Below are positions 18,236 to 59,382 of a stretch of 59,382 bases of DNA, one piece after another (the first letter of the stretch is position 1; each line of letters starts with the position of its first letter). The stretch is from assembly GCA_002712005.1 (NCBI GenBank), contig PASP01000003.1, positions 1 to 59,382 on the forward strand, written 5' to 3'. Origin of the DNA: Halobacteriovoraceae bacterium (GTDB taxonomy: Bacteria; Bdellovibrionota; Bacteriovoracia; Bacteriovoracales; Bacteriovoracaceae). The notes below the pieces were generated by a model that was not told the DNA's origin, did no database searches, and worked only from the letters and a program-made list of their open reading frames with translations. A program made the position numbers and the translations under genes.

Positions 18236-18311
18236 GTAAGTTATAGGATGTGACTTACCAGACAGGCAGGAAGCCGAAAAGAGAGGGGCCTTTGCAGGGG
18301 GCCCCTTTTTT
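18236..18311 (+). ncRNA. Candidate CsrA/RsmA-binding small RNA
   Basis: About 76 nt with no coding potential, its own promoter and an intrinsic terminator. Hairpin 1 pairs GTAAGT (18236-18241) with ACTTAC (18253-18258), displaying ATAGGATGT in the loop, close to the CsrA consensus ACARGGAUGU. Hairpin 2 pairs GGC with GCC (18265-18275) around AGGAA. The third stem is the terminator. AGGA in hairpin loops is the hallmark of CsrB/RsmX/Y-type RNAs that titrate CsrA, though two sites is at the low end. The prophage attachment core begins inside the terminator stem, and integration leaves this RNA intact. Confidence 0.45.
18285..18311 (+). terminator. Intrinsic terminator of the small RNA (contains the attL core)
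   Basis: GGGGCC (18285-18290) pairs with GGCCCC (18300-18305) around a 9-base loop, followed by TTTTTT. The attachment core starts at 18289, so the last two bases of the left stem arm and everything downstream are repeated at the right prophage end. Confidence 0.88.
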
Positions 18312-52456: not shown

Positions 52457-53764
52457 ATGAACACTCAGTTACTTTCTCCGATTCAATTACGAAAGATCAT
52501 GGAGAATGACGCTATGAGTGTATTTATTACTTATGCGACTCGTACTAAATGTAAAAAGTGTGGGAGCAAAAAATTTTTTCAAGTTGAAGATGAAGATGAT
52601 GGCCACAATATTCCTCAGTGTGCAAAGTGCTTCGTGGGGAAACCTCTTCTTTATCGGGTAGGTTTTTCTATTCCTGAATTGGGGACGAATCGATTTAAGA
52701 AAGTCTTCAAATCAAAAAACGAAGTTGGGGAAAGATTAGATACTTTAACCAAGGCCAAGAATTACAAATCATTTATTGAAAACAAGCTAAAAAAAGAAGG
52801 CCTTAATTTTGATCCAAGAGAAATTGGAACAGAGAGCGAAAGGAAAATCTTTGTAATCGAGTTTCTTTCTCAAGAGTATGTTAAGTATCAGTACAAACGA
52901 CTCAAGAAAGAACAAATAACCCCAGGTGGGCTTGCCAAAAAACTAGGAATTTTAAAAAACCAAGTTATCCCCATTTTTGGGAAATGTAATGTGAAACAAA
53001 TCAATCACTCATTAGTTGAAAGATATCTAATGAACGCAGTTGTTTCCGACTCAATGTATAATGAAATTATCAAAGAGCTTAGAGCAATACTGAATTTTGC
53101 AGCTGTAAACACTTTGATTCAAGCAGTTCCGCCACTTCCAAAGCTTCAAAGGCAAAAGACTTTTAAGGTTGAGGATTTCTATACAGAGGCCGAAAGAAAT
53201 CTGGTCATAGGAAATATTAAGAAGAGATCCCATCAAATCGCTATTCTTATGCTTACTCACTATGTCGCAAGGCAGTCAGAGATAAGATGCTTAAGGTGGA
53301 AAGATATCAATTTTAAATACGAGACAATCTCTTTTAGCCGTCATATTTCAGAAGGTAAGGGGTTAGCTAGGACTCAAGAGCTAGACGGCCTAAAATCGTC
53401 ACCAGAGGCCAAGTTAATTTATCCTTTCTTCCCAGGTTTAAGAGAAATGTTAATCGAAATGACTCCAAGTCTTAGCGGTGAGGATCTTGTTTTTCAAGGT
53501 CGTGGTGGAAACTATCTTGGTAAGAATGTTCTATGGAGCGCATGGACAAGATCAGTAGATGATTTAATTGAAAAGAAACAACTAAACAAAAAAGTTGATT
53601 TACATAGAGGTACGAGAAGTTCAACTCTGAGTATCTTGCTTGAGAAAGGTCACTCAATGCAAGAGTTGAATGAATTGTATGGTGGTAATTTACGGACGAT
53701 GGAAAAACACTATGCTAAACGCAAGATGCAAAATGTAGTTTCCATTTTTGAAAAGGGAGTGTAG
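52457..53764 (+). CDS. int: Tyrosine-recombinase integrase with N-terminal zinc ribbon
   Basis: 435 residues. An unusual N-terminal zinc ribbon (Cys32, Cys35, Cys55, Cys58) precedes a core-binding domain (about 130-220) and the catalytic domain. The Arg-I region is ARQSEIRCLRW, box II is DLHRGTRSST (the usual H-x-x-R reads R-x-x-R unless shifted), and the tyrosine nucleophile is in MEKHYAKR near the C-terminus. It lies 78 bp from attR with arm-type repeats between, and would catalyse integration into the small RNA terminator. Confidence 0.88.
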   Translation: MNTQLLSPIQLRKIMENDAMSVFITYATRTKCKKCGSKKFFQVEDEDDGHNIPQCAKCFVGKPLLYRVGFSIPELGTNRFKKVFKSKNEVGERLDTLTKAKNYKSFIENKLKKEGLNFDPREIGTESERKIFVIEFLSQEYVKYQYKRLKKEQITPGGLAKKLGILKNQVIPIFGKCNVKQINHSLVERYLMNAVVSDSMYNEIIKELRAILNFAAVNTLIQAVPPLPKLQRQKTFKVEDFYTEAERNLVIGNIKKRSHQIAILMLTHYVARQSEIRCLRWKDINFKYETISFSRHISEGKGLARTQELDGLKSSPEAKLIYPFFPGLREMLIEMTPSLSGEDLVFQGRGGNYLGKNVLWSAWTRSVDDLIEKKQLNKKVDLHRGTRSSTLSILLEKGHSMQELNELYGGNLRTMEKHYAKRKMQNVVSIFEKGV

Positions 53765-53872: not shown

Positions 53873-54481
53873 TTAGGGAAGTTTACAATCCTCCTCCCTA
53901 ACTCCAGAAGCCAATTTAATAATTTCAAAAGTTTTTCCATTAGGTCTAAAGTGTCCAAGTTCTGTAATGACATCATCGACAACATTTTTTCCTGTTAAGG
54001 GGAGTGATGTTTTCTTTAAGAGTTTTACTTCTCCATGTTTATTAAAATGGGTCATCATAATGAAGATTTTTTTAGCACCATTAACTAAGTCCATAGCACC
54101 TCCCATTCCTGTAACTTTCTTTCCTGGGATCATCCAGTTCGCTAAGTTTCTTTCGCAATCTACTTCCATAGCACCAAGAATACAGTAATCGATATGTCCA
54201 CCTCTTATCATTCCGAAGCTTAATGATGAATCGAAATAGGAGGCAGCTTGATTAATACTTATTGTTTCTTTTCCTGCATTTATAAGTGTCGGAGAGACAT
54301 CCTTTTTTGAAGGTCTCCCAGAAACTCCAAGTACACCATTTTCGGAATGAATCATGATCTCTTTTGAAGGATCAATATTCTCAGCAACGAGTGAGGGAAG
54401 TCCTATTCCTAAGTTTACACTGGAGCCCTTTTCAAGAAGGGTTGCAACATATTTGGCCATTTCATCTTTAGTCCAACTCAT
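53873..54481 (-). CDS. scoB: 3-oxoacid CoA-transferase subunit B
   Basis: 202 residues. It contains the catalytic glutamate motif SENG (IMIHSENGVLGV), GIGLPSLVAENI near the start, and MGGAMDLV, as in ScoB/AtoA-type subunits that move CoA between succinyl-CoA or acetyl-CoA and acetoacetate or another 3-oxoacid. It is paired with the subunit A gene 25 bases upstream. Its stop lies 4 bp from attR, and its native terminator was apparently the one split by the prophage. Confidence 0.92.
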   Translation of the reverse strand: MSWTKDEMAKYVATLLEKGSSVNLGIGLPSLVAENIDPSKEIMIHSENGVLGVSGRPSKKDVSPTLINAGKETISINQAASYFDSSLSFGMIRGGHIDYCILGAMEVDCERNLANWMIPGKKVTGMGGAMDLVNGAKKIFIMMTHFNKHGEVKLLKKTSLPLTGKNVVDDVITELGHFRPNGKTFEIIKLASGVREEDCKLP

Positions 54482-54506: not shown

Positions 54507-55202
54507 TTACGATTCATTTGTTTTTAAAAATTCAATATCATTGGCGTAATTTTGTCCTTGGTAGATTCGTTGAACAAAAATTCCCGGTAAATGAATATTT
54601 TCAGGTTCTATTTCTCCATACTCAACAAGTTCTTCAACTTCTACGATTGCTGTTTTTGCTGCCATCGCCATTAAAGGAGAAAAATTTCGTGCTGTTTCTT
54701 TAAACCAAAGATTCCCAAAAGAATCTCCTTTTTGAGCCTTTATAATGGCAAAGTCTGCTTCAAGTGCTGTTTCTAAAATACAGGGACGGTCAAAGTCTTT
54801 TACTTCTTTACCTTCGGCCACTAGGGTTCCATAGCCCGTTGGAGTGTAGAAAGCTCTTATTCCCATACCTGCTGCTCTAATCCGTTCAGAAAATGTTCCT
54901 TGGGGGACAAGTTCGACTTCAATCTCCTTGTTCATCATTCTCTTTTCTAGGTCTGGATTCCCTCCGACATAGGAACAGATTGCTTTAGATATTTTATCTT
55001 GAATAAGAATTTCAACTAATCCTCTGCCGCTATTTCCAATATTATTGGAGATAACAGTGAGATCATTGATATTCATCTTGGCAAGTGCATGTATTGAATT
55101 TTCAGGAATTCCACAAAGGCCAAATCCACCAGACATAATTGTGGAACCGGATTTGATATCAAAGAGAGCATCCTGTGCATTTGAGAAAACTTTTGATTTC
55201 AT
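54507..55202 (-). CDS. scoA: 3-oxoacid CoA-transferase subunit A
   Basis: 231 residues with GSTIMSGGFGLCGIPENSI (CoA-binding glycine signature), NNIGNSGRGLVEIL, SYVGGNPDLE, and IRAAGMGIRAFYTPTGYGT. Typical ScoA/AtoD features. It forms a heterotetramer with ScoB. Operon neighbour upstream is a class III aminotransferase, so the acid may come from amino-acid breakdown. Confidence 0.92.
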   Translation of the reverse strand: MKSKVFSNAQDALFDIKSGSTIMSGGFGLCGIPENSIHALAKMNINDLTVISNNIGNSGRGLVEILIQDKISKAICSYVGGNPDLEKRMMNKEIEVELVPQGTFSERIRAAGMGIRAFYTPTGYGTLVAEGKEVKDFDRPCILETALEADFAIIKAQKGDSFGNLWFKETARNFSPLMAMAAKTAIVEVEELVEYGEIEPENIHLPGIFVQRIYQGQNYANDIEFLKTNES

Positions 55203-55222: not shown

Positions 55223-56446
55223 CTACTTAGATAGAAGTTTGTTTAACGTTTTTAATGAAGACTTGAGAAGTCTTATGGGTGTATTTAAATGGGGAGCTAG
55301 AATTAAATTCTCTCGAATAATAGAGGCATAGATTCCATTTTCGATTAAGGACTCAATGGTTAGTTTATCTTGGATCTCAATGGCCATTAGATGTCCAATA
55401 TGACGAACTTTAAACCCTCTGAAAGAAAGATCTCTAGCGAACTCGGTAAGGATCATGAGGATTTCATCCGCATGTTTTTGAAACGACCTTTGTTCGGTTA
55501 GATCTAAAGTCGCTTTTATAGCACTAAGGCCTAATGGGTGGGCATAGTGAGTAAGACCACAGGAAAGAATTTTATCATCATATCTTTTGGAGAGTTTGTT
55601 ACAAACGAGAACACATCCAATTGGAAAAAAGCCTCCGCTAATTGCTTTAGCACATACAATAAAGTCTGGTTTAAGAAAGGGATAGTGATCAATACCAAAG
55701 AATGGTCCCGTTCTATAAACTGCACAGACGACTTCATCCATAATTATTTTAATTTTATATTTATTAGCTAAGGATTGTATCTTTTTATAATAGAGAGGGT
55801 GGGGGATATAGACACCATTTCCACCTGTAATCGTTTCAAGACAGAATGCAGCTATTTTATTAGATCCGTGTTTAAGGATAATTCTTTCTATACCTTCGCC
55901 TTTTGGATCTTCTTCTGGGCCAGGAATTCTTACTGTCCATTGTCTTGGAAGTAAATGTTCATCATTTCGCCAGTCTCCAGTAACACTTAGCGCCCCCATT
56001 GTGGCACCGTGATAGGACTTTTTACGGGCCAATATAATATTTTTACCCGTTAACTGTCTTGCCATTTTTAAAGCATTCTCTATCCCCTCGCTGCCACTTA
56101 GGGTATAGAAGCATTTGTAGTCTTTGCTTAATTTCCCTGTTTGAGGAGAATATCGTTTAGCCTTTTCAATGAGTCGAAGTGAGACTTCTTTTTTGAGGTC
56201 AAAAGTATGTTTGGGGAGTGCAATAGAGAATAAACTCATCTGCTTTTTTATGGCCTCCGTAATCATTTTATTTCGAAGTCCAAAGCTGGCCTGATAACTC
56301 ATAGAGGAAAGATCGACTATCTTTTTGAGATGAGGACGATAAGTTGATCCTTCAACGATATGAAAGGCGTGAGGTGAGTTTTTGCTAAGCTCTAAGGTTG
56401 TAGGAGCTTTTTGTTTGGACCACGTAATAAAATAAGGTAATTCCAT
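55223..56446 (-). CDS. Class III (ornithine/acetylornithine-type) aminotransferase
   Basis: 407 residues, PLP fold type I. The PLP-phosphate loop is SGSEGIENALKMAR, then YHGATMGALSVTG, the Asp in IIMDEVVCAVYRTG, and the PLP lysine in CAKAISGGFFPIG. This class uses terminal amino groups of substrates such as ornithine, lysine, gamma-aminobutyrate or diaminobutyrate; the substrate is not determined by these motifs. It is co-transcribed with the CoA-transferase genes downstream and the C45-type gene upstream. Confidence 0.85.
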   Translation of the reverse strand: MELPYFITWSKQKAPTTLELSKNSPHAFHIVEGSTYRPHLKKIVDLSSMSYQASFGLRNKMITEAIKKQMSLFSIALPKHTFDLKKEVSLRLIEKAKRYSPQTGKLSKDYKCFYTLSGSEGIENALKMARQLTGKNIILARKKSYHGATMGALSVTGDWRNDEHLLPRQWTVRIPGPEEDPKGEGIERIILKHGSNKIAAFCLETITGGNGVYIPHPLYYKKIQSLANKYKIKIIMDEVVCAVYRTGPFFGIDHYPFLKPDFIVCAKAISGGFFPIGCVLVCNKLSKRYDDKILSCGLTHYAHPLGLSAIKATLDLTEQRSFQKHADEILMILTEFARDLSFRGFKVRHIGHLMAIEIQDKLTIESLIENGIYASIIRENLILAPHLNTPIRLLKSSLKTLNKLLSK

Positions 56447-56490: not shown

Positions 56491-57552
56491 TTAGAGCTTA
56501 TGAGTTCGTTCACAATAGTTACTGTCTTCTAGCTTGCAGCCTCTCCAAACAAAGAATTCTTTTGTTTGGTGATTGAAAACCCCACCGCCACAAGTTATAG
56601 AAGGGTCTTGAGCTCCACTTTGGTAGTGTCCGCATAAGCTCTTAGGATAGTTGTCATGACTTTGGAGAGCATCGATGAGGTTTTGTCCATTGACTAGGGA
56701 GTCGATCTTTTCTTCCATTACTTTATAGCGATCAAAAGAAGTAGAATTTCGTGATATGGCCTCTTCTTGTTTCTTTGCTTCTTCATTTAAACAATGATTT
56801 GTATGAAATATCGCTTTATTTTCTTCCTCTTCATCAATTTTATGACTGCGCTGCTGAAACTGGGGTGATATTTCCCAATTTTCCCAAGTTTTACCATTGG
56901 AGAGGATGTAGTTATGACCAGATGTTGGTGAAGCATTAAGAAGAGAATCTTTGGCCTCATGTATTTGACCTGCTTGTAATATTTTTCTAACCATCGCTGG
57001 CCATATCACTCCGGCTTTGGCCTTTTGCGTGTTGATATTATTGACTCCTATAAAAAGAGAGTGTTTATTGGCCCCCATCATTCCCAAGCAGCCCACAAGT
57101 GAGTACACTATCCATTGACCTGGAAGTTCTATAGTGCAGACGTAATTCTTAGCTGAAGAGTGCATATCCCATGTTTGACCACTTATATTCTCTTCTTTTT
57201 TTAGGCCAACACTTGTACAGCCCTGGTCAGTTAAATTGATATCTCTAAAGTCAGTATAATTATTAAGAATGATAATATCAGTTAGGCTACTATCTGAGCC
57301 TTTAATAATTCCTTCTAATTCTTTGTATAGTTCAGGATAGTTCACTTGAGTATGTTGGGCCTGTAATTGAGCCAGCTCATCAAGATGACTTTTAAGAGCT
57401 GGATTTTTTTGTATCATTAAGTCTCTTCTAATTTGGGAGAGCTCTTTGATTTCTTGACGAAATTCTTCACCATGAGCCTTTCCCCATATAACTGGGGATT
57501 TATTTAGCTCATACTGAATGTGGGGGAAATTACAATCTGTTGTCTTGGACAT
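56491..57552 (-). CDS. C45-type acyltransferase/peptidase (penicillin acyltransferase-like)
   Basis: 353 residues. The N-terminal nucleophile motif is GCTSVG (Cys at about residue 111), followed by GQTWDMH, as in the acyl-CoA:6-aminopenicillanate acyltransferase / peptidase C45 family. Those enzymes self-cleave at Gly-Cys to expose the Cys as N-terminal nucleophile. Further family traits are LVGCLGMMGAN and FIGVNNI. It would transfer or remove an acyl group from an amine. Intergenic spacing of 10 bases from the fusion gene supports an operon. Confidence 0.75.
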   Translation of the reverse strand: MSKTTDCNFPHIQYELNKSPVIWGKAHGEEFRQEIKELSQIRRDLMIQKNPALKSHLDELAQLQAQHTQVNYPELYKELEGIIKGSDSSLTDIIILNNYTDFRDINLTDQGCTSVGLKKEENISGQTWDMHSSAKNYVCTIELPGQWIVYSLVGCLGMMGANKHSLFIGVNNINTQKAKAGVIWPAMVRKILQAGQIHEAKDSLLNASPTSGHNYILSNGKTWENWEISPQFQQRSHKIDEEEENKAIFHTNHCLNEEAKKQEEAISRNSTSFDRYKVMEEKIDSLVNGQNLIDALQSHDNYPKSLCGHYQSGAQDPSITCGGGVFNHQTKEFFVWRGCKLEDSNYCERTHKL

Positions 57553-57562
57553 ATTTTACCTT

Positions 57563-59382
57563 TTATTTTAAAAATTCCCTGATTTCACTATCACTTGGGT
57601 CTAGTTTGAAACAACTTTGAAAAGTACTAAGTTTTTCCATTAAGGAATACGAGAGAGGAGGTGTCAGAAGGCCATGGGATCTTCCTTTAATCTTTGACTT
57701 AAATTCCTTTCTTTTGCCAAGAATTTCATTCTTATTTTCAAGAAGTATATTCATTGATTTCATATACTGTGTCAGGGCAAATTGATCTCCATCCCATGTT
57801 GATATCATCATTAAGGGTTTAGAAATATAATATTCATCTTTCAAAAAGCACAGTCCCATTTGTCCACCAAGAAATACCATGGTCATATCAGGAGTAAGGT
57901 CCTCATCATTCGATATGAAGTAGTGATTTTCACTAAAATGAAATTGCTGGGATGCTGATTCATTATAGATAAGTGGTATCTTGTATTCTTGAGCTTTCTT
58001 TTTTAATTCACGCAAGAACTCAAGAGGGACACCTTCTTGGTCCATTTGCCTGACGGGCTCAATCCAGATTCCTTTTAGATGAGAATTTTTAAGATGGGTT
58101 TCCAAGTTTTTGAGAATGGTCTTGTAGTTTTTATCATCAGGATGGGGAAGATGTTGAACTGGAAAGTAGAGTTCGTCTTCACTTGTAAAGTGATGTTGGG
58201 AAAGGGAGCGAGAAAAATTACTACCTTTACCAAAGAGATGTCCTTCAAATGATAAGAAGTAAGACTCTTTTGCGAAACTTGTAGGGTCTTTAAATAGAAT
58301 AGATTTTATAATCTTGTCTACACACTCAGATTGACCAGAGGTCGTGTAAAGGTGACGCATTTCTTTTGGGAACTGGTTGGATATCTGATCGAGTTCATTA
58401 AGAAATTGATGGCCTACAAAGTTAGAGAGGCAAACCTTATTTACCAATTGAGGAATCTGTTCTTGAATGAATTCAAAATTTAAATCTTTAGTCGTTAAAT
58501 TTCCATTTATGCGATTACTAAGTGTACCTTTTTCTTCAGTATTCCATTTGAGTTCTTGCTTGTAATAGAGAACATCTCGAAAAGGAGCATGATCTGGATA
58601 ATCCTCTTTGATAAAAAATTGTTCGTATGCACCTAAAGATAGATTTATAAGTACCATATGAGAGGGGAGCCGGTCTCGGTTTCTACCTTTGATAAATTGA
58701 TACTTACCTTCCATCGCTATTAACGTAAGAGAATATTTTAGAAACTTTCCGATACTCATTCCTTGAACGGTAGGAAGTACAGTTGTATCTATCATGTAGA
58801 GGGAGTTCTCTTTTCCAAAATCAGGATCACTTCTCAATCCTCTCTCATAGGGGTAGAGCTCTATGGGACCTGCAAAGGCTATGGCAGCTAATTCATCATC
58901 TTTTTGTATTCCAAGGCAAACAGAATTCTTATCATGAGCTGTTTTTTTAAAGTAGCTGATATCTGTTTGTCGTGTTGGTTCATAAGAAGCTTTTTCAATA
59001 TCAATTATTTTCGATTTATACTGTTCAAAATTTTGAGCATTGATTTGAATGAGTTTTAAGTTGGTTCCAAACTTCTTGGAAAAACTATCTAGTTCCGTTT
59101 TAATAAAGTCTTGTGCTTGAATGGAAGAGTGCTCGGTCTTCATCGCGACCATTTGTTCATGCCACTTGGACCATCCATTATATGTTTCTTTAGCAGATCC
59201 TACTTTTAGTGTGGGAAGTTCTACTTTTTCATTTTGATAAATTCTCTTAATGATATTTCTTAATTGATTAAAGAGGAATTGAATGTCTTCTGCGCTAAAG
59301 GCCGTATTTAGTCTAAATCTTAAAGTTTTTGCCCCGGCTGGATAGAAGAGTAGACCGTGTTCAAATCTTAATTTAATGAATT
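57563..59382 (-). CDS. Large aminotransferase-GNAT-aminotransferase-like fusion (5' end outside window)
   Basis: The frame stays open to the right window edge, so it has no start here (an internal ATG at 59152 is not the true start). The first ~45 visible residues (LRFEHGLLFYPAGAKTLRFRLNTAFSAEDIQF) are the C-terminal end of a class III aminotransferase. A linker, a GNAT acetyltransferase domain (VCLGIQKDDELAAIAFAGP, VQGMSIGKFL) and a second aminotransferase-like domain (SGQSECVDKIIKSILF, IEPVRQMDQEG) follow. In the second domain the Asp-Glu-Val is replaced by NES and the PLP lysine region reads FLGGQMGL, so it is probably inactive. At least 605 residues are visible. Confidence 0.7.
   Translation of the reverse strand, partial: FIKLRFEHGLLFYPAGAKTLRFRLNTAFSAEDIQFLFNQLRNIIKRIYQNEKVELPTLKVGSAKETYNGWSKWHEQMVAMKTEHSSIQAQDFIKTELDSFSKKFGTNLKLIQINAQNFEQYKSKIIDIEKASYEPTRQTDISYFKKTAHDKNSVCLGIQKDDELAAIAFAGPIELYPYERGLRSDPDFGKENSLYMIDTTVLPTVQGMSIGKFLKYSLTLIAMEGKYQFIKGRNRDRLPSHMVLINLSLGAYEQFFIKEDYPDHAPFRDVLYYKQELKWNTEEKGTLSNRINGNLTTKDLNFEFIQEQIPQLVNKVCLSNFVGHQFLNELDQISNQFPKEMRHLYTTSGQSECVDKIIKSILFKDPTSFAKESYFLSFEGHLFGKGSNFSRSLSQHHFTSEDELYFPVQHLPHPDDKNYKTILKNLETHLKNSHLKGIWIEPVRQMDQEGVPLEFLRELKKKAQEYKIPLIYNESASQQFHFSENHYFISNDEDLTPDMTMVFLGGQMGLCFLKDEYYISKPLMMISTWDGDQFALTQYMKSMNILLENKNEILGKRKEFKSKIKGRSHGLLTPPLSYSLMEKLSTFQSCFKLDPSDSEIREFLK

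Follow-up and report, generated by a model that had tools for sequence, protein, structure and literature searches.

A class III aminotransferase fused to an acetyltransferase and a degenerate aminotransferase domain, in a candidate operon for lysine degradation through acetylated beta-lysine

Barker's group is said to have described in Pseudomonas a degradation route that leads from lysine through beta-lysine, N6-acetyl-beta-lysine, 3-oxo-6-acetamidohexanoate and 4-acetamidobutyryl-CoA to GABA. To our knowledge, there are no agreed genes for two of its steps, the transamination of N6-acetyl-beta-lysine and the deacetylation of 4-acetamidobutyryl-CoA. The closest described gene set is that of Bacillus subtilis, which runs kamA-yodP-yodQ-yodR-yodS-yodT and encodes, after kamA, a GNAT acetyltransferase, a deacylase, a CoA-transferase of two subunits, and YodT, a class III aminotransferase. 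The functions of KamA and YodT in B. subtilis are unproven (PMC6522883). In several organisms the gene for lysine 2,3-aminomutase is found clustered with that for beta-lysine acetyltransferase, the two serving lysine degradation (PMC2821294), and these enzymes also constitute the route to the compatible solute N6-acetyl-beta-lysine (PMC4685198). Our literature search found no description of a 4-acetamidobutyryl-CoA deacetylase, of N-acetyl-beta-lysine genes or of a fusion of aminotransferase, acetyltransferase and pseudoenzyme. Here we describe an operon that, on balance, probably degrades lysine by the acetylated beta-lysine route, with an aminotransferase (AT1) that is probably completed by a degenerate aminotransferase domain (psiAT) of the same protein. 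If this is true, genes would become available for a lysine route characterized mostly by biochemistry, the transaminase and deacetylase steps among them, and a homodimeric enzyme would, after duplication, provide a clean example of complementary loss.

The window, the whole stretch of DNA that was analysed, comprises the first 59,382 bases of a contig of 127,112 bases (G000:C6:1-59382). It ends inside the fusion gene, which lies on the minus strand and is open to the window end: the 3' part (57563..59382) holds codons 418-1022 and the stop, and the first 417 codons lie beyond. An earlier note on this DNA therefore dealt with codons 418-1022 only, and had named retrieval of the full gene as a check. 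The complete gene (57563-60631 of contig C6, minus strand) has 1022 codons, an ATG start and no internal stop; it is therefore a single reading frame, and a frame break separating several genes is rejected. Its product consists, in order, of AT1 (an intact class III aminotransferase), a GNAT domain and psiAT. The same architecture was seen again in 50 homologues of complete or almost complete length, from three phyla, and is therefore no assembly artefact. AlphaFold2 modelled a full-length homologue (L042, 1030 aa) confidently across the entire chain (pLDDT 91.9, pTM 0.93). The three domains that the note had read from the truncated gene thus stand, on the complete gene, the Pfam and family matches and the predicted fold.

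AT1 (aa 1-465; Pfam Aminotran_3, E 3e-40) has the class III fold with both the PLP lysine and the Asp of the DEV motif. K326, K327, D289 and the FHGR arginine R157 are found in 51/51 sequences from three phyla, and E261 is invariant in nine aligned sequences; the PLP lysine K326, D289 and R157 are encoded beyond the window end. The C-terminal part within the window (aa 418-470; 59222..59380, minus strand) carries the RFR motif of carboxylate-binding arginines, R438 and R440, again in all 51. AT1 of homologue L042 superposes on 2ord with Z 36.6 and rmsd 2.5 over 379 residues, and the nearest solved structures are lysine epsilon-aminotransferase, ArgD and GABA-AT. The Mycobacterium tuberculosis lysine epsilon-aminotransferase (2cin) and the eukaryotic-type GABA transaminase (1ohv) share with AT1 the fold and the AKK, FHGR, EGGD and RFR motifs. 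AT1 nevertheless falls far below the cut-offs of the GABA transaminase models (TIGR00699, 86.1 of 567.15 bits; TIGR00700, 47.9 of 506.65 bits) and of the L-lysine 6-transaminase model (TIGR03251, 89.8 of 520.8 bits), which counts against the reading that we favour.

The GNAT acetyltransferase domain (about aa 505-714; 58489..59119, minus strand) has a QxxGxG/A-like acetyl-CoA loop. The window's own copy matches Pfam with E 0.0096, under the gathering score, and it is through family members that the domain is placed in the GNAT superfamily: Acetyltransf_1 matches at E <= 0.01 in 11 of 18 homologues (best 6e-7). When a profile of the domain was compared with the PDB, acetyltransferases ranked top, none of them significant (best E 0.023). 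The beta-lysine N6-acetyltransferase model AblB (TIGR03827) gave no match for the fusion GNAT, another point against the favoured reading. A search of the whole genomes G000 and G018 with this model also gave none, and a separate AblB acetyltransferase elsewhere in the window's genome was thus rejected as a pathway member.

The last domain, psiAT (aa 716-1022; 57566..58486, minus strand), has no Pfam match in the window protein alone, but Aminotran_3 matches in 28 of 44 psiAT-family sequences (best 4e-11), and a PDB search with the psiAT profile retrieves transaminases at 5e-11. The predicted structure of the window's domain (pLDDT 90.1) resembles class III transaminases with Z 25.8 and rmsd 3.4 over 302 residues. 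Since it aligns to residues 57 to 411 of E. coli GABA-AT, psiAT lacks the N-terminal segment, about the first 57 residues. The earlier note had claimed that this domain lacks the PLP lysine and the DEV aspartate, and had proposed structure prediction as a check; both the class III fold and the losses are now documented. The position of the catalytic Asp reads Y-N-E (aa 889-891; 57959..57967, minus strand), with Asn at aa 890 in 45 and Asp in 1 of 51 sequences. The position of the PLP lysine reads L-G-G (aa 921-923; 57863..57871, minus strand), and no Lys occurs among the residues listed at these columns for the 51 sequences from three phyla. In a test of whether psiAT is a recent duplicate of AT1, the psiAT profile scored AT1 at up to 30 bits, a YodT-like enzyme at 26 and AT2, the second aminotransferase of the operon, at up to 24.

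Class III enzymes carry a loop, S-T-x-x-G, whose Thr in the solved homodimers binds the PLP phosphate of the other subunit; this residue is Thr297 in E. coli GABA-AT and Thr330 in lysine epsilon-aminotransferase. In psiAT the partner loop KPLMMISTWDGDQF (aa 938-951; 57779..57820, minus strand) contains I943-S-T-W-D-G-D949, including T945, W946 and G948, in 51/51 sequences, and the motif matches the STWGGN/NTWxGD loop of the 2cin and 1ohv enzymes; hhalign placed this loop only approximately, and its register is set by the motif match and spacing. AT1, for its part, mostly fails to offer this Thr to a partner: the column (aa 356) holds Thr in 6 of 51 sequences. Each half thus retains the residues lost by the other, Lys and Asp in AT1 and the partner loop in psiAT, a complementary pattern that is expected if psiAT is an obligate second subunit of AT1. 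The 2cin and 1ohv enzymes, in contrast, are homodimers with two complete sites. We propose that AT1 would hold PLP through its Lys and Asp, that psiAT would serve as the second subunit which a class III transaminase requires, and that the psiAT Thr loop would reach the phosphate of AT1's PLP, making one composite active site per chain. AT1 and psiAT would then probably be a pseudo-dimer sharing that site, and the confident model of L042 over its full chain fits such a fixed arrangement; we infer that the site lies either within one chain or between two. For psiAT the earlier note had suggested a separate channelling module. A partner half fits better, as psiAT keeps exactly the loop whose Thr AT1 has mostly lost.

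A scaffold role, in which psiAT binds a ligand, AT2 or the C45 hydrolase of the operon while AT1 forms a normal homodimer, would account for the fact that the AT1 loop is not simply decaying: it reads A-S-x-x-R-G, with S355, R358 and G359 in 51/51. We consider it improbable, because what psiAT keeps invariant is precisely the partner loop of class III enzymes, AT1 is without the Thr in 45/51 and the AlphaFold2 chain is confident overall (pTM 0.93). The altered AT1 loop (aa 355-362, encoded beyond the window end) has a conserved pattern of its own, S..RG..H, and the retention of S355, R358 and G359 indicates some other duty; the loop might fill psiAT's empty PLP pocket. Comparable arrangements are known among fold type I PLP enzymes, where in the glycine decarboxylase P-protein and in SPTLC1/SPTLC2 of serine palmitoyltransferase a half or subunit without PLP lysine supports the other. 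The likeness is one of arrangement, with no sequence relationship claimed; unlike the fusion, these enzymes are other than class III and have no GNAT between their halves. That the fusion is a homodimer divided into two complementary incomplete halves with an acetyltransferase between them, an arrangement that may pass intermediates, and that the C45 hydrolase is a 4-acetamidobutyryl-CoA deacetylase, is a joint proposal to which we give an even chance.

Four further genes follow the fusion on the minus strand. The first encodes a C45 (penicillin-acyltransferase-like) autoproteolytic acyltransferase/hydrolase (56491..57552; NCBIfam C45_proenzyme 150.4 bits, cut-off 85) whose nucleophile Cys112 is kept in 56/57 sequences, and which we propose as a candidate 4-acetamidobutyryl-CoA deacetylase/thioesterase. 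AT2 (55223..56446) is a complete class III aminotransferase with K267, D237 and T299 in 49/49 sequences and YHGA instead of FHGR, and is proposed, from these sequence features, as the putative N6-acetyl-beta-lysine transaminase. Last come the two 3-oxoacid CoA-transferase subunits, both over their model cut-offs: CtfA (54507..55202; TIGR02429 259 bits, cut-off 128.5) and CtfB (53873..54481; TIGR02428 252.7 bits, cut-off 243.55), the final operon gene. Upstream of the fusion lie thrS and a D-Ala-D-Ala ligase gene, the latter scoring 341 bits on the true Ddl model, above its cut-off of 310; both stand before the fusion in Bacteriovoracia, hold no such place in the planctomycete and myxococcal clusters, and were rejected as pathway members. 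The operon company named in the earlier note, an acyltransferase of this kind, a second aminotransferase and a CoA-transferase, is thus upheld by the model matches, and the neighbourhood search that it advised retrieved the same operon elsewhere.

Searched for across 84,980 species genomes, the fusion turned up at 60 loci, mostly in Bacteriovoracaceae and their relatives, but also in Pirellulales/Planctomycetes (e.g. Botrimarina hoheduenensis Pla111) and in Myxococcota (Enhygromyxa salina and others). The order fusion-C45-AT2-CtfA-CtfB recurs in nearly all Bacteriovoracaceae loci of sufficient length. Three planctomycete loci read fusion-C45-AT2-CtfA-KamA, and that of B. hoheduenensis (L079) continues with CtfB and a thiolase (acetyl-CoA C-acyltransferase), so that aminomutase, acetyltransferase, transaminase, CoA-transferase, thiolase and deacylase stand in a single cluster, adjoined by a succinylglutamate-semialdehyde-type aldehyde dehydrogenase. 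In a myxococcal cluster (L098) an aldehyde dehydrogenase lies directly upstream. The neighbourhood in G018 (L029/L099) holds a CoA-transferase pair, a thiolase and, in the place of AT2, a YodT-family aminotransferase (PRK06917, 399 bits). Two Bacteriovorax-like loci (L081, L082) keep fusion, C45, CtfA and CtfB without AT2 between. A dapB-like gene, probably with dapA ahead, is found near the fusion in G018 (L029/L099:1-1201) and a dapF-like gene in G033 (L102:12949-13728), these genes being named by eye from sequence.

In the window's genome the KamA-family enzyme, which is over the KamA-family cut-off, is encoded on another contig, outside the operon; it is 65-68% identical to the copies inside the planctomycete clusters (Botrimarina 65%). 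Although unlinked, KamA co-occurs with the fusion in the window's family. In the phylum, with 291 genomes examined, fusion and KamA are found together in 43; just the fusion is present in 6, just KamA in 4 and neither in 238 (Fisher p 4e-40, from a count that ignores relatedness and so overstates the evidence, as relatives share ancestry); two distant matches, G219 and G242 (E about 1e-12, 390-aa frames), were taken to be ordinary aminotransferases and excluded from the count. Across many genera of one family, a genome has either both the fusion and this KamA or neither. Of the six genomes with the fusion alone, two have a completeness below 90%, and the remaining four come from other families. 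Two relatives with 5.6-Mb genomes, G252 and G262, have KamA without the fusion, G252 in two copies.

The best curated model for this KamA is lysine 2,3-aminomutase AblA (TIGR03820), with 283.9 bits against a cut-off of 525.4, a low score that counts against lysine as the substrate; the co-occurring KamA and the fusion GNAT both lie outside the AblA and AblB models. Since KamA also scores 221 and 204 bits on the glutamate and arginine 2,3-aminomutase models, the cluster might degrade another omega-amino compound, be it glutamate or arginine through another 2,3-aminomutase, ornithine or polyamines. This seems rather unlikely to us: lysine 2,3-aminomutase is KamA's best model and only solved match, and on comparison with the Clostridium subterminale enzyme (2a5h) the positions of Asp293, Asp330 and Arg134 are kept, including both Asp residues that bind the lysine epsilon-amine. 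In addition, the cluster of two distant relatives has lysine-biosynthesis-like genes as neighbours. The names of several carriers are those of marine genera, e.g. Halobacteriovorax, and as a lysine 2,3-aminomutase and a beta-lysine acetyltransferase together constitute the solute route (PMC4685198), the system could instead make N6-acetyl-beta-lysine as a compatible solute, like ablA/ablB of methanogens. We hold this to be very improbable, as it leaves two aminotransferases, the 3-oxoacid CoA-transferase, the thiolase and the C45 hydrolase unexplained and as G008 has a separate AblB. The latter (G008:C1:887685-888479, L110; 304 bits, over the cut-off) lies beside a sodium/solute symporter-like gene, and the two genes may belong to an osmolyte system that draws on the same KamA.

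For degradation of lysine, every step has a candidate: KamA, GNAT, AT2, CtfAB, thiolase, C45 and semialdehyde dehydrogenase. We infer the substrates, the step order and the composite site as follows. A KamA-type radical-SAM aminomutase would convert lysine to L-beta-lysine, and the fusion's GNAT would acetylate N6, which would prevent cyclization of the 3-oxo acid formed later. AT2 would then take off the C3 amine to give 3-oxo-6-acetamidohexanoate, the CoA-transferase would activate this acid, and thiolase cleavage would yield acetyl-CoA and 4-acetamidobutyryl-CoA. C45 would strip both the acetyl group and CoA to release GABA, and AT1/psiAT would form a semialdehyde by transamination of GABA or of a different omega-amino acid in the route. 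A BKACE cleavage enzyme replacing CoA-transferase and thiolase was rejected, with none in three genomes. Several thiolases are present in the window's genome, together with an SSADH-family gene (G000:C15:416795-418132, L115; 672 bits, over the cut-off) that is interrupted close to its 3' end by a single in-frame TAA, from assembly error or decay. This stop counts against the proposal, as does the position of KamA and thiolase outside this genome's operon.

The assignment of AT1/psiAT as a GABA transaminase candidate is the least certain. It is made because the carboxylate arginines are kept, bacterial GabT (TIGR00700) has no strong match in 22 genomes and AT2 has YHGA. The other class III enzymes of the window's genome are ArgD, HemL, a HemL-like protein and one in a 2339-aa ORF. 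Within the same pathway, AT1/psiAT could instead be the N6-acetyl-beta-lysine transaminase, acting on the product of its fused GNAT and leaving GABA to AT2 or another enzyme; the fusion would then place consecutive steps together, and the fusion does stay in the L081 and L082 operons, which are without AT2. We regard this division of labour as unlikely, since the FHGR arginine and RFR motif of AT1 are typical of omega-amino-acid transaminases, the solved structures closest to it are those of lysine epsilon-AT, ArgD and GABA-T, and AT2, which is without the FHGR arginine, is replaced by a YodT-family enzyme in G018.

The earlier note knew no described pathway with this gene set, but the set plus KamA and thiolase fits the acetylated beta-lysine route and resembles B. 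subtilis kamA/yodPQRST. KamA, a GNAT, a class III aminotransferase, a two-subunit CoA-transferase and an amide hydrolase are common to the systems, in line with the expected order of lysine-to-GABA chemistry. Unlike in the kamA-yod genes, the GNAT is here fused between an extra aminotransferase and a degenerate partner, and the amide hydrolase is a C45 Ntn-hydrolase instead of a YodQ-type deacylase. The operon most likely serves lysine degradation by an established type of chemistry, with components that are in part new. It suggests that lysine, perhaps taken from prey protein, is used as a fuel by predatory Bacteriovoracaceae through the acetylated beta-lysine route.

Next to the operon, the window contains a prophage of ~35.6 kb (18289-53868) with terminase-, portal-, tape-measure- and integrase-like genes (integrase 52457-53764). 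A perfect direct repeat of 27 bases, CCTTTGCAGGGGGCCCCTTTTTTATTT, marks its two boundaries, with copies at 18289 and 53842, and this repeat resembles a transcription terminator at the ctfB end of the operon.
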